Of a stretch of 64,000 nt of DNA, positions 2,059-62,695 are shown piece after piece. The stretch's first letter is position 1; the number at the start of each line of letters is the position of its first letter. Location: NCBI GenBank assembly GCA_004292695.1, contig RDXV01000016.1:1-64000 (forward strand), read 5' to 3'. The translations under genes and the position numbers were made by a program. The notes beneath the pieces were generated by a model. The model was not told where the DNA came from, made no database searches, and saw nothing but the letters and a program-made list of their open reading frames with translations. Source of the stretch: Nostocales cyanobacterium (GTDB lineage Bacteria; Cyanobacteriota; Cyanobacteriia; Cyanobacteriales; Nostocaceae).

Positions 2059-2958
2059 CTATTCCCTATTACTTAGTAATTTCTGTAGTAATTCCTGTGT
2101 TAATTGTATGAATGCTTTAGCACCTGCGGAAGTTGGACTCATTAAAGAAACAGGCATAAAACTATCAACAGCTTTGGCTACATTGACATCTACAGGTATT
2201 TGAGCTTGACAGATAGTTTCTACACCAAAATCTTCGACTACACGGTGCATTACTTGTTTATAATATCTGCCAGTTAATAAATTATTGTTGCACATACTAA
2301 AAACAATTCCCAACATTTTAGTGTTTATTTTTGCTTCATGTTCGTGGCTATCTTTTAACTTGGCGATGCGTCTTTCTAATAATTGAATTCCCACCACAGA
2401 TAAAGGTTCTGGTTTAGCGGGAAGTACATAAAAATCGCTAGTTGCTAAAGCGCTCCGAGTCATGAGATTATAACCAGGGGCGCAGTCTAGGAGAATAAAA
2501 TCATATTGATCACGGACTGGTTTTAAAATATCTCTAATTAACACTCTTTCAAAACGATTCCAGATTGTTTCAAAATCACTTTCTCCCAAGGCTACAGCTT
2601 GGTTATGTAGCATTTCCGAGACGACAAATTCATCATATAAATCTATATCTCCTGGTAATAAATCTAGTCCTGGAAGTTTACATAACTGTGGTTCAATGAT
2701 GTCATTAATGTTTAATTTTGATTCTGGTTCTGGGTTAATTACTTCATCTATTAAATATCTAAAGGTTTTTCTTTGTTTGCGACGTTTGGCAAATTCTAGG
2801 GGTGACATTAAGCTGAGGGTAGCACTAATTTGACTATCTAAATCGAGAACAAGTACCTTTTTTCCGTGATTTTGTGCTAAACAGGTGGCTAAGTTAACGG
2901 TGAGTGTGGTTTTACCGACTCCACCTTTCATGTTTGCGGTTGCAATTACATATCCCAT
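2059..2958 (-). CDS. ParA/MinD-type partitioning ATPase
   Basis: This is a deviant-Walker P-loop ATPase of the ParA/Soj class, which forms nucleotide-dependent dimers on DNA and positions cargo such as plasmids, chromosomes or protein complexes. The deviant Walker A KGGVGKTT is at residues 11-18. LVLDLDSQ follows as the switch I/A' region, and FILLDCAPG is the Walker B region. Length (299 aa) fits the family. No parB or parS-like repeat is visible beside it. It is the last of several minus-strand genes beginning near 12.4 kb, about 170 bp after the nuclease-FtsK gene, so it may act with that system or be a relic of a plasmid-derived island. Its cargo cannot be told from sequence. Confidence 0.85.
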   Translation of the reverse strand: MGYVIATANMKGGVGKTTLTVNLATCLAQNHGKKVLVLDLDSQISATLSLMSPLEFAKRRKQRKTFRYLIDEVINPEPESKLNINDIIEPQLCKLPGLDLLPGDIDLYDEFVVSEMLHNQAVALGESDFETIWNRFERVLIRDILKPVRDQYDFILLDCAPGYNLMTRSALATSDFYVLPAKPEPLSVVGIQLLERRIAKLKDSHEHEAKINTKMLGIVFSMCNNNLLTGRYYKQVMHRVVEDFGVETICQAQIPVDVNVAKAVDSFMPVSLMSPTSAGAKAFIQLTQELLQKLLSNRE

Positions 2959-3128: not shown

Positions 3129-5756
3129 TTAAGGTAGTCGAATCGTTTTCACGAATAAACTTTGTAAGCGATGTAACTGAAAACCGACTTTATAAAGTAA
3201 ATCACCTTTACCTAATAGATATGCTGCGTCTATTTCTGTTCCACCTAAAACAATTTTAGAATCTGCTTCGCTGGAGGTACGTAAAGCAATTCTTCCGGGT
3301 AAATTTGAGCGAATAATAGGGGTAACAATACCCGCTTCTGGACGTTGGGTAGCAATAATTAAATGTATTCCTGCTGCTCTTGCCATTGCACCTAAACGTT
3401 TGATACTTTGTTCTAATACGGTGCGAATTTCTTTTTCTGCCATAAAATCACCATATTCATCAAAAATACAGACTATTCGGGGTAAAGGTTGGGAAGATTT
3501 TTGATTATAAACTTTTAAATCTGTACATTTATTTTTTTCAAATTTTTGATAGCGAGATTCCATTTCTATCACTAATTCTTCCATTAATTCGATTGCGCTT
3601 TCACTATCTTTAACTACTGGTGAATATAACCAGGGATTTTGTTCAAAATCTGGAAATGTTACTCTTTTCGGATCAACTAGGGCAATTTTTAGATGTTGGG
3701 GAGAATGACGGTATAGTAAACTGAGAAGTAAGGATCTCAAAAATTCACTTTTACCGCTGCCGGTTGTTCCTCCTACTAAAAAATGACAAGTATTCGGATC
3801 AGATAAATCAGCTTCTAATAAATTACCATCAATACCTATTCCTACAGCAATTTTAACAGGTGTATTTGCTGGTAAAAACTGCTTTTGAATATAATCTTCA
3901 AATTTAGCAATTTGTCTATCTTTGCGTGGTAAATCAACACTCACATAACCAGCTTGGGGAGCAATTAAAGGGGGATTTTCTAAACCTAATTGTACTTGTA
4001 AATCAGCAGATAATTTTAAAATTGCCGGAACTTTTACCCCTAAATGGGGTTTAATTTTCACCCGAATAAATGCTGGACTGATATCAGCCCCATGATAATC
4101 CACATTAACTTTAAAAGATGCTAGAGTCGTAACTAAAGATTCCCCAATTTCATCAGCATTAATAGTTGGTAAATTCTCCACCTTTTCTAAGGGGGGTTGG
4201 GGGGGATCAGATTCCCCAATTTCATCAGTATTAATAGTTGGCTTAGTTATCAACAGATCACATATATCTATCATTTTATCTATACATTGACTCAAAGAAA
4301 CTTTAGTATCAAAAAAAGTCTGACACTTTTGTTGTTGAGGACAAATTTCACATAAATGGGGTTGAGTTGTTGCAGGTGGTGGGTTAGGGTTGGGAGATTC
4401 CCATTTTAACCATTCCTGCATTTGTAATAGTTTGTAGGGAATTAATTGATGAACAGTATTTTCTAATTGTTCCCAGGAATATTGATAATCTTTAAACTCA
4501 GGTAACACACAATAAACCGCAGAATCTACCGCAGATTTTTTCTTTTGAGATAACATATAACTATATAAAGAAACCTGTGCTAACTGTGCTGCGGGATCTA
4601 CAGGTTGATAGGTTTTAAACTCTATCATACACAGGCGTTTAACTTCAAAATTAAAGACTAAACAATCAAATTCACCTCTAACTAATTGCTTGGTATGATC
4701 AGGTAAGTTAAAATAATATTCTAAAGTTCTTTCTTCTTGAATAAAAGTATTTTTAATTACTGTATCAGCACTACAATAACGCCGATTAATAATTAATAAT
4801 TCAGTGAGTTTTTTAATTAATCCTTGTATTCCTTGCCAAATTTGTAATAATGCAGGTGCTTTACTGTCATCTTGACTGATAATATTTTGTAAATAAGGGA
4901 AGAATTTAATAGTATAAAATAGTTGTTGAATATTTGATGATATTTGATCTAAATTTAGGCGATTTGCATCAGCAGTAAATAAAGATTTAATTTTGGGGTT
5001 AATCAATAGTAATTGTATCAAATCATCGGCTAATTTATGAAAAACATTACCAATACCGGAAATAGAATTTTTAGGAAAAAATATAGCTTTATCATCAAAA
5101 TGATGGTTGAGATAAAATAAACGCGGACATTCAAACGCTACTCTAACTTTAGTTGGTGTTAAAGATGAATTTTCAGATTTATTATTTACCATATTAAAAA
5201 TCTCATTAATAGCTTGAGGGTGAGATATTTGTAGTAAGCGACGATGGACAGCAGCTAAATAAACTGTATCCATTGCTGCGTATTTTAACTGTTTTTGAGT
5301 GAGAGGGCGTTTTCCCCAGTCACTTGTTCCTTCTTCTGCATCTACATCAGAAAATTGACAAAGTTCTACAGCTAAGGTTTTCAGTTTTAAATTACTAACT
5401 AGCAGTTTTTCACGGGTAATTTTTCTCGATAATTGGTATGTACAAATAATATTTTCTGCTAAGTTTTTACCTAAGTATTTTAAATCAAATCCAGAGTTAT
5501 GAAAAACCTTAGCAATTTCTGATTTTGCCATGATTTGATTGATAAAATAATCTATCAAATCTGGTTTATCTAAAACATCTAAAATGATAGCATCTTTACC
5601 AGTTAAGTCTTGAGAATTAGCCAATACTTGAATTAATGATAATCTGGGGTAGGGAGTATTCCAATCAGCAATTTCTGTATCTATCCATAGGGTTTTGTAT
5701 TGGGATAGTTGGGAAATTTGCTGATATATTTCCGCATCTTTTGTAAGGTAGTGCAT
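3129..5756 (-). CDS. RNase D-like exonuclease / Cas4-AddB-like nuclease / FtsK motor fusion
   Basis: Three modules are visible in one 875-residue chain. Residues 1-175 are a DEDDy 3'-5' exonuclease: D26 and E28 (WIDTE), D91 (HNSGFDL), and Y159-x3-D163 (YAAMD). Residues about 200-480 look like a Cas4/AddB-type PD-(D/E)XK nuclease: LTPTKVRVAFECPRLFYL at the start, an IEFK catalytic motif near 377, and three closing cysteines (CEICPQQQKC, near 470) that with the first Cys could bind a 4Fe-4S cluster. Residues about 600-875 are an FtsK/SpoIIIE ATPase with Walker A GTTGSGKS near 662 and Walker B VCIFDEYGD near 763. Known family chemistry suggests end processing coupled to DNA translocation. The combination is unfamiliar to me. 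The gene lies downstream of the ATPase at 5883-7925, with a hairpin in the 126-bp gap. Confidence 0.8.
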   Translation of the reverse strand: MHYLTKDAEIYQQISQLSQYKTLWIDTEIADWNTPYPRLSLIQVLANSQDLTGKDAIILDVLDKPDLIDYFINQIMAKSEIAKVFHNSGFDLKYLGKNLAENIICTYQLSRKITREKLLVSNLKLKTLAVELCQFSDVDAEEGTSDWGKRPLTQKQLKYAAMDTVYLAAVHRRLLQISHPQAINEIFNMVNNKSENSSLTPTKVRVAFECPRLFYLNHHFDDKAIFFPKNSISGIGNVFHKLADDLIQLLLINPKIKSLFTADANRLNLDQISSNIQQLFYTIKFFPYLQNIISQDDSKAPALLQIWQGIQGLIKKLTELLIINRRYCSADTVIKNTFIQEERTLEYYFNLPDHTKQLVRGEFDCLVFNFEVKRLCMIEFKTYQPVDPAAQLAQVSLYSYMLSQKKKSAVDSAVYCVLPEFKDYQYSWEQLENTVHQLIPYKLLQMQEWLKWESPNPNPPPATTQPHLCEICPQQQKCQTFFDTKVSLSQCIDKMIDICDLLITKPTINTDEIGESDPPQPPLEKVENLPTINADEIGESLVTTLASFKVNVDYHGADISPAFIRVKIKPHLGVKVPAILKLSADLQVQLGLENPPLIAPQAGYVSVDLPRKDRQIAKFEDYIQKQFLPANTPVKIAVGIGIDGNLLEADLSDPNTCHFLVGGTTGSGKSEFLRSLLLSLLYRHSPQHLKIALVDPKRVTFPDFEQNPWLYSPVVKDSESAIELMEELVIEMESRYQKFEKNKCTDLKVYNQKSSQPLPRIVCIFDEYGDFMAEKEIRTVLEQSIKRLGAMARAAGIHLIIATQRPEAGIVTPIIRSNLPGRIALRTSSEADSKIVLGGTEIDAAYLLGKGDLLYKVGFQLHRLQSLFVKTIRLP

Positions 5757-5783: not shown

Positions 5784-5848
5784 AGATCCCCGACTTCTTT
5801 TACAATCATTTTAATAAATTAAAAATTAAGTGCAGAAGTCGGGGATCT
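5784..5848. repeat. dispersed hairpin repeat, 15-bp perfect arms
   Basis: AGATCCCCGACTTCT at 5784-5798 is answered by its exact reverse complement at 5834-5848, around a 35-bp AT-rich loop. The same arm core recurs at 38897-38929 after an unrelated gene. It is therefore a dispersed palindromic repeat, not a gene-specific terminator, although it could attenuate transcription between the ATPase and nuclease-FtsK genes. Confidence 0.75.
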
Positions 5849-5882
5849 GAGTATTAAAAATTGCTATAAATGAATGCTTACA

Positions 5883-7925
5883 TTATATTTGAGGATTCCA
5901 AGAAATTAACTGATCTTGTAATTTTGCTTTTGGGTTCATAATCTTAGCTTTCCTTTCCTGACATAATAGGTCAATTAACATTTTAATGTCAGTTTCTTGA
6001 ACATCAGAAAATTGATTAGATGCTTGAGAAATTAATGTAGGTACTCCCATAAATCCTTGAGTTTTGATGAGATTTAAGATAAAATCTTTTACAGGTCTGT
6101 AATCTTTTCTCTCTTTGATGATTGGATCTGGTTCTGGTTGAGAAACGAGACCTAAATCATGTAATAAAGTACATTGTTTATGCAAGATTTGAGATTGACG
6201 TATTAAAGATTCTAGTCCTTGTACATTAATCGTTTTCCCACCAATTACTAATTCTTGAGATTTGGCAGAATTGACGAAACTTTGGTATGTTGCCAAATAA
6301 TGAACTGCTGTTAGACTTGGTTTGATGTGTTGGTGATGAGTGTTTGTAAAAATCTGCCTATAAAGTTGATTTCCTGCAAGATTTGGTTTTCCTACATTTC
6401 CAGCGCGAATTAAATAAAGAGTTTTACAGCTATTGTTCTGAATTACATTTTTACAAGCATTCATAACATGAAAAAAAGTATTCATGCTAGAATCTTCTGT
6501 CCAGACTATTCCTACTCTTTCTTGTTTGTGAGACTGCTGATAACTCAAGGAATAAGTAGCATATCTTCCAGTTAAAAGTTTAGGTTTAATTCCCTGGATT
6601 TGTAAAGCTGATAGAGATTGTTGTAACATCTGCATTAAGTCAGATGAGGATAACAGAGATAATTTTGTAATTTTACTTTGAATTTTGCTATATTCTTTCT
6701 GCCATAGTAATTCAAATTCTGCTTGAATTGTATCTGTATTATTAGTATGTTCTGACTTTCCGTCATTGGTAGTTCTAGTTCGTAAACCTTCTTTATATTT
6801 TTGATATTCGTCCCGACCTAAAACTAATACATTTCTAGGTTTAGTTTTACCACCAGGATAATTTTTTTCTAGAATTTGCCTACTCAGCGGAAAAATAGAA
6901 GATTCAGGTTTGGAATTTGCTAATTGATGTAATGGTTTGAGGTGATAGTTCCAAAGTGATTCTGCTTGTTCTATAGTAATATCTTTTAACTTAATCTCTC
7001 TTTCTATTCGAGCTTTATCCGCTCTGAAAATCCGATCAAAATTGCGATTCCACGTTTGTGTGATTACACTTATAATAATTAAAAAATTTTTTAGATTATC
7101 TGCATGAAAACTTGTATTAACATTAAAAAAAGGTTGTACATCTAAAAAACCTTCAGGTGAATGGGGCATACTGTCAAAGTTATCAAAACATAAAACAATT
7201 GGTTGGGTCTGTGTGGAAATTCTGCCAAAATTTGTTAAAATGTTTTTTGCTGCATCTTCCGTATCAATGCAGTTTTTAACTTTTATTGCTTTCATTGATT
7301 CTTCACTTAAATCATCTCCTCGCAACCATTCGCAAGCTGTATCATATAATTCGGGATTTGCTAAATCATGCAGCACGCCAAAAAAGATATCAGGGTTATA
7401 GATACCTGCTTTTTGATAGGTATATTTGAGATGTTTAATAAATCTTTGGCGATTACTTTGTAATGCTTCCCAAAAATTATCATTAAATATTATTTTTGTG
7501 ATATCACTTCTGGTAAAAGCTGATAAACTTTTTAGCCACAACATCAATTGTGATTCTTTTTCACCTTCAGGAATTTGAATTAAACTATCAACTGTATGGC
7601 GTAAAATATGCCGCCAAATATAGTTACTATCAGGCCAATTACATAATATATATACGAAGAATGCTTTGCTATTTAAGGTACGTTTAAGCCGACCTAATAA
7701 ATAGCTTTTCCCAGACCCAGGTTCACCTTCTAGCGAAATTGTACGACTACGATGATCCATACTTAATAACTTGAGTAAATCTTCAATCTGAATTATTACA
7801 TCTTGATGAATTGACTCAACTATTAGGGATGAATCTTGCTTATCAGCCCAGAAATTAGTAGCTGCCAAATTTATCAAGTCAAAAGGATTGACTTCGCGTT
7901 TAATGATATTGTTTATGTCTGTCAT
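5883..7925 (-). CDS. P-loop ATPase of the accessory island (copy 1, intact Walker B)
   Basis: This 680-residue ATPase of an unrecognised family has Walker A GEPGSGKS at 67-74 and a Walker B-like IVLCFDNFD ending in D248. A conserved middle (WLRGDDL near 200) and a C-terminal half (YATYSLSYQ, GIVWTED, VHYLATYQS) match a second copy at 10397-12445. The last 60 residues resemble a winged helix. The reading frame is open back to 7955, but I start at 7925 (MTDINNIIKREVNPFD) because the paralogue begins MQSIDDIILRNINPFD. The arrangement recalls loader-type ATPases feeding an FtsK/HerA-like motor; that role is inferred. Its neighbours on the same strand are the winged-helix-like gene upstream and the nuclease-FtsK gene downstream. 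Confidence 0.7.
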   Translation of the reverse strand: MTDINNIIKREVNPFDLINLAATNFWADKQDSSLIVESIHQDVIIQIEDLLKLLSMDHRSRTISLEGEPGSGKSYLLGRLKRTLNSKAFFVYILCNWPDSNYIWRHILRHTVDSLIQIPEGEKESQLMLWLKSLSAFTRSDITKIIFNDNFWEALQSNRQRFIKHLKYTYQKAGIYNPDIFFGVLHDLANPELYDTACEWLRGDDLSEESMKAIKVKNCIDTEDAAKNILTNFGRISTQTQPIVLCFDNFDSMPHSPEGFLDVQPFFNVNTSFHADNLKNFLIIISVITQTWNRNFDRIFRADKARIEREIKLKDITIEQAESLWNYHLKPLHQLANSKPESSIFPLSRQILEKNYPGGKTKPRNVLVLGRDEYQKYKEGLRTRTTNDGKSEHTNNTDTIQAEFELLWQKEYSKIQSKITKLSLLSSSDLMQMLQQSLSALQIQGIKPKLLTGRYATYSLSYQQSHKQERVGIVWTEDSSMNTFFHVMNACKNVIQNNSCKTLYLIRAGNVGKPNLAGNQLYRQIFTNTHHQHIKPSLTAVHYLATYQSFVNSAKSQELVIGGKTINVQGLESLIRQSQILHKQCTLLHDLGLVSQPEPDPIIKERKDYRPVKDFILNLIKTQGFMGVPTLISQASNQFSDVQETDIKMLIDLLCQERKAKIMNPKAKLQDQLISWNPQI

Positions 7926-7982: not shown

Positions 7983-8840
7983 TTAATTCACTATTATGAA
8001 AAATAGTGAACCACCAATATTTTGAGGAATACCAGCATCAATTTGTTCTGGGGTGTAAGCAATAGGTTCTTGTAAAGAACTTAAATCTATTTTGTCATTT
8101 CTTTGCAACCTATACAAAGCCTGATCTAATTCATCTCTTGATAAAGGTGGTTGTAACTTTTCTCGCAGATGAAAAATAGGCAAATAATTCTCTGTACCCA
8201 GTTCCCGATCTAATTTTTTAATAGTCTCTAAAATCTGTTCATCACTGGGTTTGCTGATGGTTTCTATTTCTGATTTTTCAATGGTAGATAATACAGAAGT
8301 AACTGTTTCTGAATGACGTAAATTTTTGCGTAAAAATCGGAGATAATTACCCAATAAATCTAAACTAATAACAGGATTGTTACTTTGATTGGGAATAAAT
8401 TCATCACGCAAAAATTCAATTCCCCTTGCAGTTAACCACACTTCAGCTTTGACTCTTTTCATTTTGATTTCTACATCAATCAAACCCCTTCCACTCAATA
8501 CTGTTAATATCGCTTCTCGTTCATCTGATTTCAAACCAGAAACTTTAATTTCACTGGGGGCAATTTTTTTAGAACTTTTACCGATTTTTTCTAATACTTT
8601 GAGTTCTTTATCACTAATGGGTAACTGACTGGAATCTAATTTTAATAACGCCTGGCCAGCATCTAAAATCTTGACTGTGGCAATTTCACGGGAATATTCT
8701 ACCAGTTGGCGATCGCCCAAATCTCGGCAAATTTTGTTTTTCTCTTTTTTAAAGGAATCAAAAATACTGGAACTTAACCCAGCCCGGTAGTTAGGACATC
8801 CCAATAGTTTTAATACAAATTTAAGCTCTTTAGTATCCAT
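7983..8840 (-). CDS. winged-helix-like protein of the ATPase/FtsK island
   Basis: This is a 285-residue soluble, charged protein. The central part (AILTVLSGRGLIDVEIKMK then VWLTARGIEFL) looks like a winged helix with a two-strand wing. Near the C terminus, LSRDELDQALYRLQRNDKI looks like a second one, and the protein ends with a hydrophobic IGGSLFFIIVN. I start at the ATG at 8838-8840 (MDTKELKFV) because the in-frame extension to 8942 is hydrophobic and unlike the rest. It would be the first gene of a three-gene set followed by the ATPase (start 7925) and the nuclease-FtsK gene. It could be an adaptor, a DNA-binding subunit or a regulator. I know no family name for it. Confidence 0.6.
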   Translation of the reverse strand: MDTKELKFVLKLLGCPNYRAGLSSSIFDSFKKEKNKICRDLGDRQLVEYSREIATVKILDAGQALLKLDSSQLPISDKELKVLEKIGKSSKKIAPSEIKVSGLKSDEREAILTVLSGRGLIDVEIKMKRVKAEVWLTARGIEFLRDEFIPNQSNNPVISLDLLGNYLRFLRKNLRHSETVTSVLSTIEKSEIETISKPSDEQILETIKKLDRELGTENYLPIFHLREKLQPPLSRDELDQALYRLQRNDKIDLSSLQEPIAYTPEQIDAGIPQNIGGSLFFIIVN

Positions 8841-9058
8841 GAATTTGATATTTATGAATGTTAACCAAGAATAATCCCAGGTTAAACAAAGAAAAATTGA
8901 CACTCGTTTATTATAGTAACTCCAACGAGTGCCACTTTTCACTAAATATCATGCAAATTTTTAATTACTGCATTCTGACGTACCTATGTAATGATCTTGA
9001 CGAAGCTAATTAATTGTTAACTCCCATAGTATGGGAATTAATCTTAAAAGAAACTGTT

Positions 9059-10396: not shown

Positions 10397-12445
10397 TTAC
10401 TTCCCCGGAAACAAAACAACTAACTGTACAGAAGGATGCGCTTTCGGATCAATAATTTTAATCTTATTTTCCCAACATAATTGTTGAATTAAATTATCAA
10501 GCTGCAATTCACTCAAATGAGAAAATACACTAACTGCTTTCTGTAACAAAACCTGTCTACTTAAACAAGACTGAGTAATAACTAAATTAAATATATAATC
10601 CTTAGCATTTTTTACATCTATATGTTTTTTGATGGGTTTGAATACATTCATCTCACCACGAGAATCATAATTTTTATCATCAATATTAACTGGGTTTTTA
10701 ACTATTCCTAAATCCTGCAACAAATCACAATCATCTAAAATTCTAGTTGCAGCAATCAAAGATTGTAAATTCCTTAAACTAATCACTTTACTACCAACCA
10801 CTAAATCACCTTCTCGCGCAGTTTTTACCAAACTGTGATAAGTAGCTAAATAGTGTACAGAATCTAAACTAGGAATAATATAACGATGTTGTGGTTTCAG
10901 AAAAATATCTTGATAAACTTGATAACCGCGACTTTGAGAACTACTTAAATCTTGAGAACGAATGAGAATTAACTTTAAAGAAGGATTTTTTTCTAAGGTT
11001 TTTCTACAAGCTTCCATAGCATAGAAAAAACTTTCTGAATTTTCATCTTCTGTCCACACGATACCAATATTTTGTTCCGTATTTGGAAGTTGATAACTTA
11101 ATGAATAACTCGCATATTTACTTCTGATAAATAATGATGTTGCCACTTCTTTGATACCAAATAATAATAAAACATCTTGCAATATTTGAATTAATTCTGT
11201 AGATGATAATTTATGTATTTTTGAAATTTGTTGTTGAATTTGTGAAAATTCTTCATACCATCTCACCTTAAAGTAATAAGTGATATCTAATTTATCTTGA
11301 ATATTTTTATGTAAATTAAAATCTGTTTTTTGTTCATCTCTTAATAACCATTTTTTATAAGCATTAAATACACTTTTTCCATATATACTTACATCCCTAA
11401 AATTCATTCTCCCTATAGGAAAGGATCTCTCTAAAAATTGACGATTTAATGGATATAAAGGAGAACTTGGTAAAGATTTTGCTTGTTTATGTAAAGATTC
11501 TAACCTAGATCCTAACATTAACTCTGCTTGGGCTAAACTTACATCTTTTAATTCTATTTCTTGATCAATACTCTCTGGATATAATTTTTGAATATCCTCT
11601 TGATATTCTTGCCAACGATGACTATTAATACTGAAAATAATGACTATATTTTGATTATCTTCTCTGATTTTAGCATTTATTTGAAATAAAGCATCTAAAT
11701 CTAATCTACCGTTGGGTAATTTAGGCAAACTTTCTAAATGATAAAAACAAATAATTATAGGTTGAATTTCACAAGTAATGATACTTAAATTAGTTAATGT
11801 TTCTCTAGCTGTTGTTTCTGTATTTATAGACTTTTCTACTCCTAAACTTTTTAAAGATTCTGCTGCTAAGTCATCACCACGTAAATACCTAATAGCTAAC
11901 TCATATAATTCTGGGGTAGTTAATTCATATAAAATACTAAAAAAATCATCAGCATTGTGAATTTTGACTTTTTTATATTTTTCCTTCATTTTGCTGATAA
12001 AGTTTTGTTTATCACTTTTAAAAAAATTCAACAATTTATCTTTCTCTTCTTTAATTTTTGATAAATATAATAATAACGGTGAAGTTATTTTCTCATTTTT
12101 TGGTTTTACTAAACTGTCAACTGTATAGCGTAAAATTCGCCTCCAAATACTATCTCTTTTCGCAAATGGAGGAATTTTTACAAAAAAACTTTTATAGTTT
12201 AATTTAATTTTTAAACTGTTTAATAAGTAAGTTTTACCACAACTACTATCCCCAGTGATTAATGCTGTTCTTGTGATATGATCCTGTAAATTTTGACTTA
12301 ATAATGTTTCAATTTTGATAAATGTTTCTTGGTGAAGATAACTAATTGTTGATTGTTCTTCAAGATTGTGATTAATAAATTCAGGACAATAAAAATTGTC
12401 AAAGGGGTTAATATTCCGCAAAATAATATCATCAATGGACTGCAT
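10397..12445 (-). CDS. P-loop ATPase paralogue (copy 2, degenerate Walker B)
   Basis: This 682-residue protein is collinear with the ATPase at 5883-7925: the same NPFD start, IWRRILRYTVDSLV, YLRGDDL, YASYSLSYQ, GIVWTEDE and VHYLATYHS blocks. Walker A is kept as GDSSCGKT (65-72). The Walker B strand, however, reads IIICFYHLE, with Tyr235 where copy 1 has the acidic D248. It may therefore bind but hydrolyse ATP poorly, perhaps as a regulatory partner in a hetero-oligomer; this is inference. The sequence is more AT-rich and Lys/Asn-rich than copy 1, suggesting faster divergence. It is separated from copy 1 by the winged-helix-like and WbsX genes. The start is supported by alignment with the paralogue. 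Confidence 0.7.
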   Translation of the reverse strand: MQSIDDIILRNINPFDNFYCPEFINHNLEEQSTISYLHQETFIKIETLLSQNLQDHITRTALITGDSSCGKTYLLNSLKIKLNYKSFFVKIPPFAKRDSIWRRILRYTVDSLVKPKNEKITSPLLLYLSKIKEEKDKLLNFFKSDKQNFISKMKEKYKKVKIHNADDFFSILYELTTPELYELAIRYLRGDDLAAESLKSLGVEKSINTETTARETLTNLSIITCEIQPIIICFYHLESLPKLPNGRLDLDALFQINAKIREDNQNIVIIFSINSHRWQEYQEDIQKLYPESIDQEIELKDVSLAQAELMLGSRLESLHKQAKSLPSSPLYPLNRQFLERSFPIGRMNFRDVSIYGKSVFNAYKKWLLRDEQKTDFNLHKNIQDKLDITYYFKVRWYEEFSQIQQQISKIHKLSSTELIQILQDVLLLFGIKEVATSLFIRSKYASYSLSYQLPNTEQNIGIVWTEDENSESFFYAMEACRKTLEKNPSLKLILIRSQDLSSSQSRGYQVYQDIFLKPQHRYIIPSLDSVHYLATYHSLVKTAREGDLVVGSKVISLRNLQSLIAATRILDDCDLLQDLGIVKNPVNIDDKNYDSRGEMNVFKPIKKHIDVKNAKDYIFNLVITQSCLSRQVLLQKAVSVFSHLSELQLDNLIQQLCWENKIKIIDPKAHPSVQLVVLFPGK

Positions 12446-29128: not shown

Positions 29129-30313
29129 TCAAAAAATAGCTAATTCAGAATTAGTATGTCTATCAATTACTGGTTTTCCTATGGGTTGATTTCCCTCCAT
29201 GACATTTAGCAAATATTCACCTAATTCTTGAGCGAGTAATACTGGTACTGCATTACCAATTTGTTTATATTTAGAACTAATAGAACCATGAAAAATCCAA
29301 TCATCAGGAAAAGTTTGAATTCTGGCAGACTCGCGGACAGTTAAAGGACGGAGTTCTACAGGATGACACATATCTGTAGCTTTTTGATGGGGACAAGTTG
29401 TAATAGTTGGTGAAGGTTTTTCCCAAGATAATCTTCTGTAAAATCCTACTTTCCCACCACCAGAATTAAAAGCACCACCCATTGCTTCTTGTTTTAATTC
29501 TTCTGGTAAATATCGCCAGTTTTGTCCTGCTTTTAATAGTTTTAAAAACTTTAACCGATTTTCAGAATAAGATATAAATTCTGGCCGATTATCAACCAAA
29601 TCTACTAATCCATCTTTTAAAGTTCTCCATTTTGGTAAAGTTTTACCATCTTTACTATATTTAGCTAAAGGAAAAGTTACATTTTCACCATCTCTAGAAC
29701 CAATGAAAACTACACGCAATCTATTTTGAGGAACTCCATAATCTGCTGCTTCTAATAGGTTGTAAACTACGTTATAACCTAATTCTTTCATTTCTGTTAA
29801 AACAACTTGTAAAGCTGCACCAGCTATTTCATCAGCTTCTAAAGGTGGGTAATTTTTACCACGTTGGTTGATTGGCCGATGACGTAGAGAAGCAGAAAGT
29901 AAACCTCTGACATTTTCCATTAAAAAAAATCGGGGTTGTGCTTCTTTAACAACTCGGATAAAGTCCATAAATAAACTACCGCGAGGGTCCATGACAGAAC
30001 CACGTTTTCCTGCTGTACTAAATGGTTGACAAGGGGGACCACCAGTTACTAAGTCTACTTCACCTGGAAGTAAAGCACGACCTAATTCTAAAACTCTTCC
30101 ACCTTCTTCTAATAATTGTTGAGAACTGACTTTTTCTATTTCTCTAGAAACAGCACTTTCTTGTAGATAGGGACGGTTTATAGCAATAGTTTTGACTGCA
30201 TCTCTATCTTTTTCGACAACGGAAACAGTTTTACATCCTGCTTTTTCTAGACCTAAATCTAAACCATACGCACCCGTAAATAGGGATATAGAAAGAGGTT
30301 GATTATTAATCAT
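29129..30313 (-). CDS. DNA (cytosine-5) methyltransferase
   Basis: The enzyme transfers a methyl group from SAM to C5 of cytosine in DNA. Motif I is SLFTGAYGLDLGLE, motif IV is TGGPPCQPFSTAGKRG with the catalytic Cys, motif VI is MENVRG and motif VIII is QNRLRVVFIGSR. Motifs IX-X (RESARIQTFPDDW, KQIGNAVP) close the chain. The length is 394 residues, with the target-recognition region between about 235 and 320. The recognition sequence cannot be read from the protein. A role in methylating a HIP1-related site, as some solitary cyanobacterial C5 enzymes do, is a possibility only. It is divergent from a 116-residue gene 7 bp away and convergent with the RND pump. Confidence 0.93.
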   Translation of the reverse strand: MINNQPLSISLFTGAYGLDLGLEKAGCKTVSVVEKDRDAVKTIAINRPYLQESAVSREIEKVSSQQLLEEGGRVLELGRALLPGEVDLVTGGPPCQPFSTAGKRGSVMDPRGSLFMDFIRVVKEAQPRFFLMENVRGLLSASLRHRPINQRGKNYPPLEADEIAGAALQVVLTEMKELGYNVVYNLLEAADYGVPQNRLRVVFIGSRDGENVTFPLAKYSKDGKTLPKWRTLKDGLVDLVDNRPEFISYSENRLKFLKLLKAGQNWRYLPEELKQEAMGGAFNSGGGKVGFYRRLSWEKPSPTITTCPHQKATDMCHPVELRPLTVRESARIQTFPDDWIFHGSISSKYKQIGNAVPVLLAQELGEYLLNVMEGNQPIGKPVIDRHTNSELAIF

Positions 30314-42888: not shown

Positions 42889-42935
42889 TTTACTCATAAC
42901 TAACCTAAAAAAAAAGTGAGTAAAAAGTGAGTAAA
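42889..42935. promoter_or_regulatory. left-end cluster of GTGAGTAAA 9-mers (possible recombinase arm sites)
   Basis: TTTACTCAT at 42889-42897 (inverted, one mismatch), GTGAGTAAA at 42916-42924 and GTGAGTAAA at 42927-42935 lie 40-90 bp inside attL. A matching group lies inside attR. Tyrosine recombinases commonly bind short arm sites near att cores. The assignment is inferred from position and repetition. Confidence 0.45.
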
Positions 42936-44318
42936 AAAATAGAAGTCGGTGGTGATGGTAATTTTGACGGTTTTCAAGATTTACTAAAGTTCTACCAAAA
43001 TACATCTAAGCAATTATCAAAGGGTATTAGTTTTAAAAGGCAAGGCAAGTATCTGTATCTACAGTTCATTTATCCCGGTGAAACAAAACGATTACCTCAT
43101 AAACCAGATTATGGTTTTAGTTATGAAAGTATCATTAAAGCAAAGGAAAATGCACATAGAATTGCTTATGCACTTGACACTATAACCAGTGTTACTGAAT
43201 TTACAGATTGGTATAACAAAGAAATACTCGGTAAAAATGAAGTAACCGATGATAGGATTACCTACCGCGAGATATTTGGAAAAATAGAACAGAAATACTT
43301 CTCTGGTAAACATAAGAATGTTAAGTCACAGAAACGAGATAAAGACGCTATAAGCTATCAAGCGAACTTTGACTCATATTATGGGTGTGTTTTTAAACGG
43401 TTTACCGATTGGGATAAACAACCAACTTGGGAAGATATCAAAACCGTCTTATTTACTTGGAAACAAGGCACTAAAACTTTTAAGGATAGCTACACGGTAA
43501 TTAAAAAAATAGTTAGCTATTGTCCTAACAGAGATAAGTTACTAGCATTACTATCTGAGATTGACTGCCAACAAACTGAGTATAAGGAACGTCAATCAAT
43601 TAGTTTAGAACAGTTCCTAGAATGGCATAATAAAACATTAGAAGATGCACCAGATAGATACAGAGAATGTACAACATCTTGGTTATGGGTAGCGTCAATG
43701 TGTGTGGTTTATGGTTTACGTCCATCTGAGATTGCAGCCGCTTTAAACCTGACTCAACCTTACACAAAAGACGGTATAACTATACCTGCAATCAATAATC
43801 CAAATAACACAGAATTATTACTTGTGTTAGGTAAAGAAACTTACTTTGGTACAACAATTAAAACAGGCAGTAGGATATGTAAGCCATTGTGTGTAACAAA
43901 ACAAATAATAGATGGGTTAAATCTAAGAACACCAAAATTACCAAAGTACAAACCAAGAATAGGTAGTAAACCTCAAACTATTGTTAATGGGTTTTCTAAT
44001 AGTTACAGACGGAATATGGTCGCTTGGAAATGTCCTGTTTCACAAGCCTACGCCTTTAGACATTTAGGTAATCAGCAGGGTGAAAAATACGGTATTCCAC
44101 AAGAAATCAGAGCTAGGTCAATGGGACATTCAGTAGCGGTGAATGAGAGTACCTACAAAAAACGTTCTAACTTCCAAACTTCTGTTGATCTATTAACTAA
44201 CCATAGTAAGCAACCATTAAGCCTAGATATGGCTATACAGCAATTAGAAACAACTGGTTTTGATTTAGATGACCCAAGTGTTAAGGCGGTTCTCAAGGTA
44301 ATCTATCAACTACCATAA
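42927..44318 (+). CDS. tyrosine recombinase (integrase) of the tRNA-Leu element
   Basis: The 463-residue protein has the phage-integrase catalytic fold in its C-terminal third. The first Arg is in VYGLRPSEIAAAL. The second box reads YAFRHLGNQQG, and IRARSMGHSVAVNESTYKK carries the last His and the nucleophilic Tyr. The long N-terminal part would hold arm- and core-binding domains. The GTG start at 42927 lies inside one of the 9-mer repeats, so integrase binding there could also repress its own expression. It is the only recombination gene in the element and adjoins attL. A terminator follows it at 44349-44375. Confidence 0.85.
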   Translation: MSKKIEVGGDGNFDGFQDLLKFYQNTSKQLSKGISFKRQGKYLYLQFIYPGETKRLPHKPDYGFSYESIIKAKENAHRIAYALDTITSVTEFTDWYNKEILGKNEVTDDRITYREIFGKIEQKYFSGKHKNVKSQKRDKDAISYQANFDSYYGCVFKRFTDWDKQPTWEDIKTVLFTWKQGTKTFKDSYTVIKKIVSYCPNRDKLLALLSEIDCQQTEYKERQSISLEQFLEWHNKTLEDAPDRYRECTTSWLWVASMCVVYGLRPSEIAAALNLTQPYTKDGITIPAINNPNNTELLLVLGKETYFGTTIKTGSRICKPLCVTKQIIDGLNLRTPKLPKYKPRIGSKPQTIVNGFSNSYRRNMVAWKCPVSQAYAFRHLGNQQGEKYGIPQEIRARSMGHSVAVNESTYKKRSNFQTSVDLLTNHSKQPLSLDMAIQQLETTGFDLDDPSVKAVLKVIYQLP

Positions 44319-44348
44319 ATCACGAATAAGCAACTAAATAATTACCTC

Positions 44349-44375
44349 ACCTACTCAACAATGGGTAGGTTTTTT
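44349..44375 (+). terminator. rho-independent terminator after the integrase gene
   Basis: CCTACTC (44350-44356) pairs with GGGTAGG (44363-44369) over a 6-base loop, followed by six T residues. The position, 30 bp after the integrase stop, is right for its terminator. Confidence 0.75.
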
Positions 44376-44384
44376 ACTGTTTAA

Positions 44385-44514
44385 AATATCTCTCAGATGC
44401 AATGAGATTATATACCACACACTCACTAAGTCAAGGGTAAAATGAATTCGTACCTCACCCTTGACTAAGTTCGTTAGTGTGGAATAAATCTATTTTTTGT
44501 TCCTGAGAGATATT
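44385..44514. repeat. nested inverted repeat 1 of the element
   Basis: Three stems nest in order. Outer: AATATCTCTCAG (44385-44396) with CTGAGAGATATT (44503-44514). Middle: CCACAC (44415-44420) with GTGTGG (44477-44482). Inner: AGTCAAGGGT (44429-44438) with ACCCTTGACT (44457-44466). The whole could fold as one long cruciform or RNA. The inner stem core AGTCAAGG recurs in the second nested repeat. Confidence 0.8.
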
Positions 44515-44552
44515 GGTAAATGTAGTTTATAGGTTGTACCTTACAAATAATT

Positions 44553-44577
44553 TTATTAAATAACTTTATTAAATAAA
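44553..44577. promoter_or_regulatory. operator-like AT repeat, copy 1 (downstream of the 86-aa gene)
   Basis: TTATTAAATAACTTTATTAA is shared in large part with copies at 44930-44959 and 46063-46090. Here it precedes an ATG with a very short frame (MTTRKP) and lies beyond the 3' end of the minus-strand 86-aa gene. It is the most degenerate copy. Confidence 0.5.
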
Positions 44578-44641
44578 AAAATCATGACTACTCGCAAGCC
44601 ATGATTAATAGGACATAAAAATGAAACACAAAATTATCATA

Positions 44642-44902
44642 TCATTGATGTTTCCTAACTGTCAAATCTGAGTTATTCATCATATATCGTGACAAGTCAT
44701 CCATAGTAGATTCTACTTGATTTACACTACGTTCTATGCTACTCAATCTATGGTTAACCATCTCTAATTTACCTTTAGTTTCAACATTGAAAGTAGTTGT
44801 AATTTTAATGTCTTGTTTCATGTCAGACACAATTTTACCTGCGTAACTCATAACCGCTAACCCCGTACCAATAATCGTTAATGTCTCTACACTTAAAGGC
44901 AT
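44642..44902 (-). CDS. small membrane/coiled-coil protein of the element (86 aa)
   Basis: I do not recognise this protein. It has one hydrophobic helix near the N terminus (LTIIGTGLAVMSYAGKIV) followed by a hydrophilic helix with heptad spacing (LEMVNHRLSSIERSVNQVESTMDDLSRYM) that looks like a coiled coil. The layout recalls small phage or element membrane proteins. A GGAGAT lies just before the ATG. It is divergent from the gene at 44991, with operator-like repeat copy 2 between them. Confidence 0.55.
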   Translation of the reverse strand: MPLSVETLTIIGTGLAVMSYAGKIVSDMKQDIKITTTFNVETKGKLEMVNHRLSSIERSVNQVESTMDDLSRYMMNNSDLTVRKHQ

Positions 44903-44929
44903 ATTTATCTCCCTACTTTGTTTGTGATT

Positions 44930-44959
44930 AAAGTTATTAAATAACTTTATTTAATAACT
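44930..44959. promoter_or_regulatory. operator-like AT repeat, copy 2 (divergent promoter region)
   Basis: The 17-bp near-palindrome AAGTTATTAAATAACTT overlaps a direct repeat of AATAACTT/A spaced 13 bp. It lies between the divergent 86-aa and 67-aa genes. The arrangement suits a repressor or activator encoded by the element. Confidence 0.55.
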
Positions 44960-44990
44960 ATTTTCATGACAAACAAGTGAGGAATAAATT

Positions 44991-45194
44991 ATGAATTTTG
45001 TAAGGATAACGACGGGTACAATTACCTATGCAATTAATCTAGATTATGTTACGTGCTGGTATTTAAATCAACACGAAGATAAGTTAGTTATTTACTATGC
45101 AGATAAAAGTAATGATACTTTTGTGGCAAGTAATAATCGAAATTTTATTGAGTGTTTAAAACATCAATCTAGACAAGTTAATGAGTTCAGATAG
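44991..45194 (+). CDS. small hypothetical protein of the element (67 aa)
   Basis: This appears to be a small beta-rich protein (FVRITTGTITYAINLDYVTCWYL, KLVIYYADKSNDTFVAS) with a positively charged tail. GTGAGGA lies about 8 bp before the ATG, a good ribosome binding site. The next gene starts 11 bp after the stop, so the two form an operon driven from the copy-2 repeat region. The family is not recognised. Confidence 0.55.
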   Translation: MNFVRITTGTITYAINLDYVTCWYLNQHEDKLVIYYADKSNDTFVASNNRNFIECLKHQSRQVNEFR

Positions 45195-45205
45195 GAGTCA
45201 AAACA

Positions 45206-46012
45206 ATGAATAAAGCTATTAGAGGGTCAATAATGTTGGCGGGAATTAAGTTAGAAGTGTTCCATATCCCACAAACACAATCTAACTTTTATGTATTCAG
45301 TCAAACTCAGGTGGCGACCGCTGTTAATGTCCCAAAAATGTATGTTACAAGGTGGTTAAAAAATAAAGAGTCAACGGTAGAATCAGGGTTTTACGAGTCA
45401 CAATATTTAGACTCAAAACGGGTAGAAGCCTTACCAGGTAATAATTTTACGGGTCACAAAATTGAATCTAATAAACAAGGTAAACGAGGTGAGTCTAGAA
45501 TTAAAATAGTACCAATTGAATTAGCGGTAGAATTTTGGCTAGACCAGGCACTTACTCGGAATAATGAACAAGCTATAGCGTTAACCTATGCTTGTTTGAA
45601 TGAGGCACTAAAACGACGGTGTGATGAAATATTTTTAGGTAAATTAACCACTGACTTAATTGACTATGAAAGTGATACCGAAGATGACAAAAATAATTTT
45701 TTAACATATTTACAATCACGATCTATCTTGCGAGATTCACATATCAGCTTTACTAATTGCTGTTTATACAATGGGTTTAATGCTGCAATTGCCCACAATG
45801 AGATTACAAAACAGTTGTTAGGCAAAACAGCTAAGGAACTAAGGGAAGATGAGTTAATCAATGGTAACTATCGAGTCGGGTTAAATCACATACCAAATAG
45901 TGATGAATTAATTTTAATAGCCAAAGTAAAGTTAGAATTTAGTCGGTATAGACACGGTAACGTATACGAGAGGGTTAAGCGCGCTGTCAATGAGATTATG
46001 AAATTAAAGTAA
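45206..46012 (+). CDS. phage-antirepressor-like protein of the element (268 aa)
   Basis: No family is assigned with certainty. Residues about 30-60 (YVFSQTQVATAVNVPKMYVTRWLKNKES) look like a helix-turn-helix with a recognition helix and basic end. The middle (IVPIELAVEFWLDQALTRNNEQAIALTYACLNEALKRRCDEIF) resembles the helical region that follows DNA-binding domains in phage antirepressors. AGGAGTC precedes the ATG. It is the largest cargo gene and a fair candidate for the element's regulator or replication initiator. It is co-transcribed with the 67-aa gene. Confidence 0.5.
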   Translation: MNKAIRGSIMLAGIKLEVFHIPQTQSNFYVFSQTQVATAVNVPKMYVTRWLKNKESTVESGFYESQYLDSKRVEALPGNNFTGHKIESNKQGKRGESRIKIVPIELAVEFWLDQALTRNNEQAIALTYACLNEALKRRCDEIFLGKLTTDLIDYESDTEDDKNNFLTYLQSRSILRDSHISFTNCCLYNGFNAAIAHNEITKQLLGKTAKELREDELINGNYRVGLNHIPNSDELILIAKVKLEFSRYRHGNVYERVKRAVNEIMKLK

Positions 46013-46062
46013 AAAAATCAAATCATAAGTAGATGGGTATGTTCGTTGAGTTCATACCTTTT

Positions 46063-46090
46063 TTATTCAATAACTTTATTTAATAACTTT
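46063..46090. promoter_or_regulatory. operator-like AT repeat, copy 3 (upstream of the 116-aa gene)
   Basis: CAATAACTTTATTTAATAAC carries the AATAACTT direct repeat with the same 13-bp period as copy 2. It ends 4 bp before the start codon at 46095, an unusual position that would let a bound protein block translation initiation or promoter clearance. Confidence 0.5.
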
Positions 46091-46094
46091 GAAC

Positions 46095-46445
46095 ATGACA
46101 ATACAACATATCCCAACTGACTACGGCATATTATCGGTAGTTAAACGTCGTGGCTACTATTACGCGGTAAGAACACACTTTAACCGCAAGAGACAGATAT
46201 ATCTAGGTAAGATAGTTCCTGATACGGATACGCTTAATGAAGTTGCCAAAGATATTTATTCAAGTGACAGAGAATGGTACACAAATCATCCCCCAAAGCC
46301 TGAGAAGTTACGAGCCAGGGTTAAGGATACAAATAATCTATCCTTACGAGACGATTTACTCAGAGTATGTGAACTGTGCAAGGTATTTGGTGAGGAAAGA
46401 ATAGAACAGCAGATAAGGACCATAATTAAAGTTCACTTGCCATAA
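46095..46445 (+). CDS. small hypothetical protein of the element (116 aa)
   Basis: The basic N-terminal part (SVVKRRGYYYAVRTHFNRKRQIYLGKIVPDTDTL) looks like a three-stranded, DNA- or RNA-binding sheet similar to AP2-like or integrase arm-binding domains. A helical C-terminal part follows. The frame extends to a TTG at 46089, but the ATG at 46095 is preferred. It could be an accessory recombination factor (excisionase-like); this is speculation based on charge and location. Confidence 0.5.
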   Translation: MTIQHIPTDYGILSVVKRRGYYYAVRTHFNRKRQIYLGKIVPDTDTLNEVAKDIYSSDREWYTNHPPKPEKLRARVKDTNNLSLRDDLLRVCELCKVFGEERIEQQIRTIIKVHLP

Positions 46446-46531
46446 GTTAGCTTTGGTCACGAACTAAGGATAGAAGTTTTGTACCCTTGAGTGTGGCTAC
46501 TCACCAATAATCACTATTCCCCAACAAACCT

Positions 46532-46656
46532 CACCCTGTAACCTACAAAAAATCTGGGTATGGTTCTAATGAAGTTAGTCAAGGTTACGGAGTACGATAG
46601 CTTGACCTTGACTTACTGAATGAACCATGTACCCTATCAAGTCAGGTTACAGGGTG
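46532..46656. repeat. nested inverted repeat 2 of the element
   Basis: Outer stem: CACCCTGTAACCT (46532-46544) with AGGTTACAGGGTG (46644-46656), 13 bp perfect. Middle: GGGTATGGTTC (46556-46566) with GAACCATGTACCC (46622-46634), with a 2-base bulge. Inner: AGTCAAGGT (46577-46585) with ACCTTGACT (46605-46613). The three-stem plan and the inner AGTCAAGG core match the first nested repeat. Confidence 0.85.
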
Positions 46657-46730
46657 CTTTGTATGCTTGGTAGGTAAATTACCCTTCATTTATCAAATTA
46701 CAGTGTGTCCTTACCCCAAAATCACTATGA

Positions 46731-46815
46731 ATAGTACCTATGTACACTTGTTGCTGGTTTAATGACTTGTTACTGTTAATCATCTACTCAGTGACTAGGA
46801 ATACATAGGTACTAT
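46731..46815. repeat. nested inverted repeat 3 of the element
   Basis: Outer stem: ATAGTACCTATGTA (46731-46744) with TACATAGGTACTAT (46802-46815), 14 bp perfect. Inner: GTTACTG (46769-46775) with CAGTGAC (46789-46795), one wobble pair. It lies 74 bp after the second nested repeat. Confidence 0.8.
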
Positions 46816-46834
46816 GGTATGTATGTATTGGTTG

Positions 46835-46886
46835 TTTACTCACTTTACCTGTTGTATAGTTAGCTTGTGAGTAAATTTTGAGTAAA
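46835..46886. promoter_or_regulatory. right-end cluster of GTGAGTAAA 9-mers (possible recombinase arm sites)
   Basis: TTTACTCAC at 46835-46843, GTGAGTAAA at 46867-46875 and TTGAGTAAA at 46878-46886 mirror the group near attL. The first two form a 9-bp inverted repeat. Three such sites at each end are consistent with recombinase arm binding. Confidence 0.45.
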
Positions 46887-46942
46887 ATAAATTATTTCTC
46901 ATTAACTCAAAATGCTGTGATGTTGTGAGCATAGGAGTGAGA

Positions 46943-46968
46943 AATAATGGGCAAGAGGAGAATCGAAC
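46943..46968. repeat. attR: right copy of the 26-bp att core within tRNA-Leu
   Basis: Identical to 42821-42846. The last 20 bp coincide with the 3' acceptor and T-arm sequence of the tRNA gene (minus strand), so integration left the tRNA intact. Confidence 0.9.
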
Positions 46969-47031
46969 TCCTATGATCGCAAGATCGCCGCATTTTGAGT
47001 GCGGTGCGTCTACCAGTTTCGCCACTCGCCC
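46949..47031 (-). tRNA. tRNA-Leu, anticodon CAA
   Basis: On the minus strand the sequence starts GGGCGAGTGGCGAAAC and ends TTCTCCTCTTGCCC, 83 nt without CCA. The acceptor stem GGGCGAG pairs with CTTGCCC, with one G-T. The anticodon arm CCGCA-CTCAAAA-TGCGG gives CAA. A long variable arm (GATC-TTGC-GATC) marks a class II tRNA, and the T loop is TTCGATT. It is the attachment site of the integrated element. Confidence 0.95.
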
Positions 47032-61903: not shown

Positions 61904-62695
61904 TTATAATGGTCTAATAAATACTTTCACTGCTAAACCATCTGTAGTCTTGCTTAAATCGTTTTCAATTCCACGAGGATTTTTAATTCTTCTTTCTGGA
62001 TCATAAACAAAACAAATGAGAGTTTTACAATCAGGATGTGATTTATAACGAGTAATGTCTACAATTAATTGCTCTCCAATTTCTTTATCAGTAAGCTTTT
62101 CACTTGTCTTTTTAATCTCAATAACAGTTTGTTCAGTCTTTAACAGAAAGTCAACTCTTGAAGCACAACCAGCACAACTTGGAGTACATTCTTCATCTCT
62201 GATATCATCAAAATATAAAGTTAGTAAAGCATGGAACAAATCCTGAACATCATACTCATCATTAATTTTTATTGTTTGCCTTTTACTGTGTCTGATTTGC
62301 AGTTGTCTAGCAACAGAATCAAATCTATTACAAATAATTTCAATATTGTTGAAATGAGAAATAACAAGTTGATTCATGTCAGGTTCTTCCCAATACTCTT
62401 CTATTTCCCGTATCATTGATTCTAAAATTGCATGAGCTTTATCTAAGGCTTGCAGAAAGAATTTATCTTTAAGAGATTTGTCATAACTATTTCCAAAGGC
62501 AATTTTTGGACTGTAGAAAAAAATATCCTTAAAATCGTTAACATATTGAGTATTATATCCAAATATCTTGGTTATACAAATTTGTGTATCTCGCTTCCAC
62601 TTCTCAAACTCTTTGCCCCATAAACATTGTATTTTTAGATTATCAATTAATTGAATTTGATGTTGAATTTTTGCAATTGCCTCTTCTTTTTTCAT
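61904..62695 (-). CDS. orphan DpnII/MboI-type restriction-endonuclease-fold protein
   Basis: The C-terminal domain (about 150-263) reads DVQDLFHALLTLYFDDIRDEECTPSCAGCASRVDFLLKTEQTVIEIKKT and LTDKEIGEQLIVDITRYKSHPDCKTLICFVYDPE. These are the signatures of the REase_DpnII-MboI-like PD-(D/E)XK family: the catalytic Asp in RVDFLL and the ExK in IEIKK. The helical N-terminal half (1-140, KKEEAIAKIQHQIQLIDNLK) is of the kind found in orphan members of this family, which often act as effectors in conflict systems. No methyltransferase adjoins it here. It is 263 residues and minus strand, in the accessory tail. Its role as a defence effector is inferred. Confidence 0.75.
   Translation of the reverse strand: MKKEEAIAKIQHQIQLIDNLKIQCLWGKEFEKWKRDTQICITKIFGYNTQYVNDFKDIFFYSPKIAFGNSYDKSLKDKFFLQALDKAHAILESMIREIEEYWEEPDMNQLVISHFNNIEIICNRFDSVARQLQIRHSKRQTIKINDEYDVQDLFHALLTLYFDDIRDEECTPSCAGCASRVDFLLKTEQTVIEIKKTSEKLTDKEIGEQLIVDITRYKSHPDCKTLICFVYDPERRIKNPRGIENDLSKTTDGLAVKVFIRPL

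Follow-up and report, generated by a model that had tools for sequence, protein, structure and literature searches.

A nuclease–FtsK operon of Nostocaceae that fits the predicted Orc/Cdc6–HerA/FtsK DNA-capture class

Three co-directional genes in the DNA analysed here (the window, a stretch of 64,000 nucleotides from a Nostocales cyanobacterium of the family Nostocaceae) encode a winged-helix (wHTH) protein, an Orc/Cdc6-like AAA+ ATPase and a single protein in which a DEDDy 3′–5′ exonuclease, a PD-(D/E)XK nuclease and an FtsK motor are joined (Table 1). On balance, we favour the reading that these genes would form a restriction-like DNA-capture machine directed against invaders, of the kind predicted as the "HerA/FtsK capture" anti-invader class by Rakesh, Aravind and Krishnan (2024; PMC10853773, main text).

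Table 1. Operon genes, their domains and two neighbouring features, in window coordinates
Feature	Position	Strand	Basis
Gene 1, winged-helix protein, 285 aa from M35 of the listed ORF (7983-8942)	7983..8840	-	homologue starts
Gene 2, Orc/Cdc6-like AAA+ ATPase, 690 aa	5883..7955	-	AlphaFold2, Foldseek, VIA, Pfam
Gene 2, AAA+ core and lid, residues 48-393; Walker A GEPGSGKS, Walker B LCFDN	6777..7814	-	AlphaFold2, alignment
Gene 2, alpha/beta domain, residues 437-600, inactive-PD-(D/E)XK-like strand/helix order	6156..6647	-	AlphaFold2 secondary structure
Gene 2, C-terminal winged helix, residues 618-690	5886..6104	-	AlphaFold2
Gene 3, exonuclease/PD-(D/E)XK/FtsK protein, 875 aa	3129..5756	-	ORF, Pfam, homologue alignment
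Gene 3, DEDDy 3′–5′ exonuclease domain, residues 1-184	5205..5756	-	Pfam PF01612, Z 19.2 to RNase D 1yt3
Gene 3, PD-(D/E)XK nuclease, CxxCx5C plus C210, residues 196-483	4308..5171	-	PF12705, conserved motifs
Gene 3, FtsK alpha domain, residues 533-610	3927..4160	-	PF17854
Gene 3, FtsK RecA-type motor, residues 624-875	3132..3887	-	PF01580, Z 41.8 to FtsK motor
Second, diverged Orc/Cdc6-like ATPase, outside the operon, 38% identical to gene 2	10397..12445	-	sequence, trees
ParA-like gene, conserved syntenic neighbour downstream	2059..2958	-	judged outside the system

The third gene of the operon is an ATG-initiated, frameshift-free open reading frame with exact boundaries. Pfam profiles detect DNA_pol_A_exo1 at residues 2–175 (E 1.2e-23), PDDEXK_1 at 199–479 (E 4e-8, above the gathering score), FtsK_alpha at 533–610 (E 9e-8) and FtsK_SpoIIIE at 624–806 (E 2.5e-39), a domain make-up far beyond chance. 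In the AlphaFold2 model of the protein (mean pLDDT 81; pTM 0.44, with unreliable mutual placement of the domains), the N-terminal domain is a DEDD exonuclease that superposes on RNase D, Pol I and NrnC with Z about 19, and the motor superposes on the FtsK motor 2iut. The active sites were followed through an alignment of 25 full-length homologues from nine cyanobacterial families, which are 53–88% identical to the window's protein. The DEDDy residues D26, E28, D91, Y159 and D163 are unchanged in all 25, as are H240, D364, K381, Q394 and Y398 of the PD-(D/E)XK domain; E379 is replaced by D in one homologue only. The Walker A motif of the motor, GGTTGSGKS (662–670), is likewise kept, with T664 as its sole variable position, and so is its Walker B motif (D766 E767). 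A preliminary description made from the letters alone had read the protein as an RNase D-like exonuclease, a PD-(D/E)XK nuclease and an FtsK motor in one chain, with every DEDDy, ExK and Walker motif intact; Pfam, AlphaFold2 and motif conservation agree with it.

For the middle domain, the AlphaFold2 model places strands at 344–381, the last of which bears the ExK motif, followed by a helix and another strand. Among the matches listed for the full model in a VIA fold search, which are taken up by FtsK and exonuclease entries, there is no PD-(D/E)XK nuclease, and a profile of the middle domain, run against PDB sequences, gave chance-level matches only. The assignment is settled by the Pfam profiles: PDDEXK_1 is matched by this domain in all eight members tested (best E 2.4e-17), and some members additionally match Dna2 or Cas4, weakly. 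The possible four-cysteine cluster pointed out earlier also holds up, as C210, C469, C472 and C478 are unchanged in 25 of 25 homologues; the invariant cysteines are retained even where the catalytic residues of the nuclease are lost. Their C...CxxCx5C spacing, with one cysteine far upstream, is what we take to be the AddB pattern. Judging from these motifs and the four cysteines, the middle nuclease is predicted to be an Fe–S enzyme of the Cas4/Dna2/AddB type. It has the H, D, ExK, QxxxY and C...CxxCx5C motifs in common with the nucleases of AddAB/RecBCD, Cas4 and Dna2, whereas the partner is an FtsK pump fused to it here and an SF1 helicase there. A complete exonuclease domain is missing in 4 of the 38 carriers, the plasmid copy and two others, suggesting that the exonuclease is optional and that the PD-(D/E)XK–FtsK part is the core of the protein.

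The motor itself differs from chromosomal FtsK/SpoIIIE in its surroundings: the N-terminus consists of nuclease domains and the chain stops at the motor, with no gamma domain after it and no membrane part by Pfam and sequence. In an FtsK tree, whose long branches make it a guide only, the motor stands apart from the sampled housekeeping FtsK proteins. Separately, chromosomal-type FtsK gave few matches at E 1e-20 across the 386 cyanobacterial genomes (few candidates scored per genome), a weak hint that canonical FtsK may be absent from most oxygenic cyanobacteria. The motor is homologous to SspH (PADLOC SspH 7.5e-65; hhalign 2e-42), and SspFGH, like the present operon, has three genes, one with a Walker A motif and one whose large product ends in an FtsK motor. 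However, the match of the ATPase to SspF is limited to Walker A, the wHTH protein has no SspG match, the N-terminal domains of the large protein are without a match, and no SspBCD/ssp modification genes lie in the operon or among its conserved neighbours. Membership in SspFGH was thus rejected, the motor being the only common part. With HerA–NurA and the HerA–nuclease defence complexes the operon shares the coupling of a DNA pump, here a predicted ring, to a nuclease, but it differs from both in its FtsK-clade motor with FtsK-alpha, in having its nucleases in cis and in the Orc/Cdc6-like ATPase of the operon. The RNase D-like domain matches the C-terminal part of BREX BrxHI (4e-10), which is a helicase where the present protein has FtsK; the operon genes are not in common.

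The order wHTH–ATPase–nuclease/FtsK, with the three genes reading the same way, is kept in nearly all 20-kb neighbourhoods inspected. The start of gene 1 was corrected by homology, and the chain shows weak matches to separate winged helices (Z-alpha, eS10, HTH_45 and MksE), so that the protein probably carries several wHTH repeats. The AlphaFold2 model of gene 2 (pLDDT 82, pTM 0.68) comprises an AAA+ core, a lid, an alpha/beta domain and a C-terminal winged helix. ORC and Cdc6 proteins rank first in a Foldseek search with this model, VIA gives Z 13–15, and AAA_16/AAA_22 is matched in 23 of 23 gene 2 members. In most ATPase members the residue after the Walker B aspartate is N or Q, not E, which makes ATP hydrolysis by this ATPase uncertain. 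The strand of the alpha/beta domain that should carry (D/E)xK lacks it, and we regard the domain as a putative inactive nuclease by analogy with the class described in the main text of PMC10853773.

Outside the operon, the second, diverged Orc/Cdc6-like ATPase has lost its Walker B aspartate (CFYHLES), and orphan ATPases of this type survive at the same syntenic place in three further genomes (G231, G072 and G306). In other loci (L064, L072, L222, L218 and L228) two Orc/Cdc6-like ATPase genes lie in tandem after a wHTH gene; a nuclease–FtsK gene is close by in some of these loci and not in others, and the two ATPase copies fall in separate clades. The ParA-like neighbour was considered as a part of the system and rejected, since it occupies the same site, at 88–94% identity, in the operon-less genomes G231, G072 and G306. 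Elsewhere in the window, an integrase-like ORF (42927-44318), small phage-like ORFs and a tRNA (46948-47031) may mark an integrated element at 42927-47031, an ORF at 29129-30313 resembles a DNA cytosine methyltransferase, and an ORF at 61904-62695 has an IEIKK motif and possibly a restriction-endonuclease-like fold.

As its main text describes it, the class of PMC10853773 comprises an Orc/CDC6 AAA+ protein with an inactive REase and then a C-terminal wHTH, an active REase, a HerA/FtsK motor and wHTH proteins, which in a subset have 2–4 wHTH domains; one set carries FtsK-alpha, and some members fuse a 3′–5′ exonuclease to the FtsK component. The operon shares with this description the Orc/Cdc6 AAA+ fold, FtsK-alpha together with the FtsK motor, and the exonuclease–FtsK fusion; its conserved winged-helix gene and active-type PD-(D/E)XK nuclease would answer to the wHTH protein and the active REase, and in the model of gene 2 an alpha/beta domain with a fitting strand order sits between the AAA+ part and the winged helix. 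On these likenesses, the operon reasonably fits the class, which is itself not new. The PD-(D/E)XK nuclease is of the Dna2/Cas4/AddB kind and may or may not belong to one of the two REase families named for the class. One difference from the class as given there is that one chain here has the predicted Fe–S-type PD-(D/E)XK nuclease plus the exonuclease. The main text of PMC10853773 mentions neither cyanobacteria nor RNase D, Cas4 or AddB. As far as that main text shows, the new elements are the pairing of the Fe–S-type nuclease with an RNase D domain that closely resembles the RNase D of the host, the exchange of the ATPase, and the finding that the operon, at one fixed place in the chromosome, can be decayed or missing. 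The preliminary description had called the system plausibly undescribed, which does not stand for the class and may stand, against the same main text, for this combination of nucleases.

The nuclease–FtsK protein was found in at least 38 of 386 cyanobacterial genomes (about 10%), all in the window's order, and so is not the universal housekeeping gene that it might have been. The count was taken from a match table with 2–3 candidates scored per genome, so genome counts are lower bounds; in a scan of the genome contigs, cyanobacterial members are at least as many as those among the matches listed. The ATPase is present in at least 46 of the 386 genomes (E < 1e-90) and in all 38 carriers of the nuclease–FtsK protein (Fisher p 5e-21 within the order), which agrees with the coupling to the adjacent ATPase and winged-helix genes proposed at the outset. 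In G051, G233 and G101 the wHTH–ATPase pair lies elsewhere in the genome from the nuclease–FtsK gene; the ATPase co-occurs even when unlinked, showing that the association goes beyond gene order. The ATPase and the wHTH protein are also found without the nuclease/FtsK gene, and both may have another role. Fragments or pseudogenes of the nuclease–FtsK gene occur in G042, G024, G251, G199 and G385, a split copy occurs in G305, and in G231, of the same genus, the operon is absent at the same chromosomal site. Together with a copy on a conjugative Pseudanabaena plasmid, the decayed copies and the operon-less G231 are in keeping with a system that is costly and can be dispensed with. Other Nostocaceae (L215 of G231, 5788-7898, also L216, L217 and L227) have a two-gene cassette at this site; by sequence reading, one gene encodes a ParA-like ATPase with a fused HsdR-N-like nuclease and the other a ParB-like protein.

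Within Nostocaceae the operon seems to have been passed on mostly by vertical descent at a single site. Its flanking genes are mostly housekeeping, and no obvious defence island surrounds the loci. Both facts weaken the defence reading, and this chromosomal, largely syntenic inheritance suits the idea of a host DNA end-processing or repair machine like AddAB or RecBCD, or of a partial stand-in for chromosomal FtsK. A nuclease of the Dna2/Cas4/AddB type would suit such a machine as well, and the exonuclease domain shares about 53% identity with the RNase D that the same genome encodes as a separate protein (G000:C114). We nevertheless consider a repair role unlikely, given the presence in about one genome in ten with fragments, pseudogenes and a split copy, the missing membrane part and gamma domain, and swaps of the ATPase, which are unusual for a repair enzyme. 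Of defence and end processing, both of which the preliminary description had offered, defence is drawn from membership of the predicted class, and end processing remains a rival.

The Pseudanabaena plasmid copy and the related FtsK proteins on large cyanobacterial plasmids raise another alternative, namely that the operon is a domesticated maintenance or transfer module of a mobile element, for plasmid segregation or conjugation coupling. However, the ATPase is on only one plasmid among 72,556 records, viral contigs matched the FtsK part alone with no relative of the ATPase found, and two conserved nuclease active sites suit destruction better than transfer, all of which make such a module highly unlikely. 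Patchy presence, decay, the plasmid copy, module exchange and class membership all favour the anti-invader reading.

One point against a capture machine is that the operon itself encodes no mark of self and non-self. In a further alternative, the operon would be the unlinked, structurally different restriction partner of the cyanobacterial Dnd phosphorothioate (PT) modification: host DNA would be shielded by its PT marks, and the machine would destroy PT-free DNA as DndFGH or SspFGH do in other organisms. The operon shares with DndFGH/DptFGH the logic of an ATPase, a DNA-binding protein and a nuclease–FtsK effector, the motor model superposes on the DndH C-domain with Z 20.6, and the motor falls, on long branches, in the SspH-holding half of the FtsK tree. 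The cyanobacterial dnd clusters were reported to be confined to Cyanobacteriales, and DndFGH to be missing from them (PMC8569181), and the operon is likewise confined to the window's order: 93 of 94 strong DndC matches and 38 of 38 operons in the sampled cyanobacteria lie there. DndC is present in 36 of the 38 operon carriers. However, within the order this compares with 57 of 67 other genomes (p 0.20, not significant), and the phylum-wide association (p 9e-23) was discarded as evidence, being explained by the confinement of both to one order. DndC went undetected in two carriers of the system, G051 and G159, the operon and the dnd genes are unlinked, and the dnd cluster of the host has its own adjacent HNH gene. 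That cluster, on another contig (L229, G000:C59), consists of an ABC ATPase, DndB-, DndC-, DndD- and DndE-like genes and the HNH gene. The three proteins match none of the DndF, DndG and DndH families in NCBIfam and PADLOC, and DndH has about 1,700 aa with domains other than those found here; a search for TIGR03238 in 130 genomes gave zero matches anywhere and, lacking a positive control, is uninformative. A PT link is possible, but a restriction partner of Dnd is quite an unlikely identity for the operon; if true, it would explain the apparent lack of a restriction partner for cyanobacterial Dnd.

Returning to the capture machine, the comparison of two loci shows which subunit varies. Between L034 and L035 the nuclease/FtsK protein is 90% and the wHTH protein 79% identical, whereas the ATPase is only 49% identical, and the trees agree in that the L034 ATPase groups with another clade. 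Sequence comparison shows an exchange of the ATPase gene while the rest of the operon is conserved, and the exchangeable ATPase is likely the specificity or targeting subunit.

Relatives outside cyanobacteria show the same partners in other arrangements. In Thalassoglobus (Planctomycetota), a wHTH gene is followed by a nuclease-free, 1,023-aa fusion of the ATPase to FtsK, and a second genome has a copy that is 88% identical. In another planctomycete (G581), an Orc/Cdc6-type ATPase is followed by a PD-(D/E)XK–FtsK gene with no exonuclease, with hhalign probabilities of 99–100% for the ATPase over 474 columns and for the nuclease–FtsK protein over 585 columns; its upstream 256-aa winged-helix-like gene does not match the wHTH profile and was identified solely by its position. 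Set against these planctomycete arrangements, both the RNase D domain and the four-cysteine cluster look like acquisitions of the cyanobacterial line. An hhalign match of one ATPase-side profile (A2) to an FtsK protein was set aside as due to a fused planctomycete sequence in that profile. Further variation was seen in G131 (L063, 3925-11873), where a kinase domain is inserted between the exonuclease and a degenerate PD-(D/E)XK domain and an intact stand-alone PD-(D/E)XK copy lies before the operon; the Thalassoglobus operon (L078), too, has a kinase-like gene after it.

In the mechanism that we propose, the winged-helix protein and the Orc/Cdc6-like ATPase would attach to DNA, recognise or tag the target and place the pump on it. 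The FtsK motor, to judge from its fold and intact motifs, would assemble as a ring and pull double-stranded DNA; during pumping, the predicted Fe–S PD-(D/E)XK nuclease would cut and the DEDDy exonuclease would trim 3′ ends, so that the invader DNA would be destroyed. The operon offers a compact and intact Nostocaceae example of a DNA-capture defence class that was predicted from sequence alone. With the pump, the cutter and the trimmer in one chain, it is suited to structural and single-molecule work, and the exchange of the ATPase suggests which subunit sets the target.
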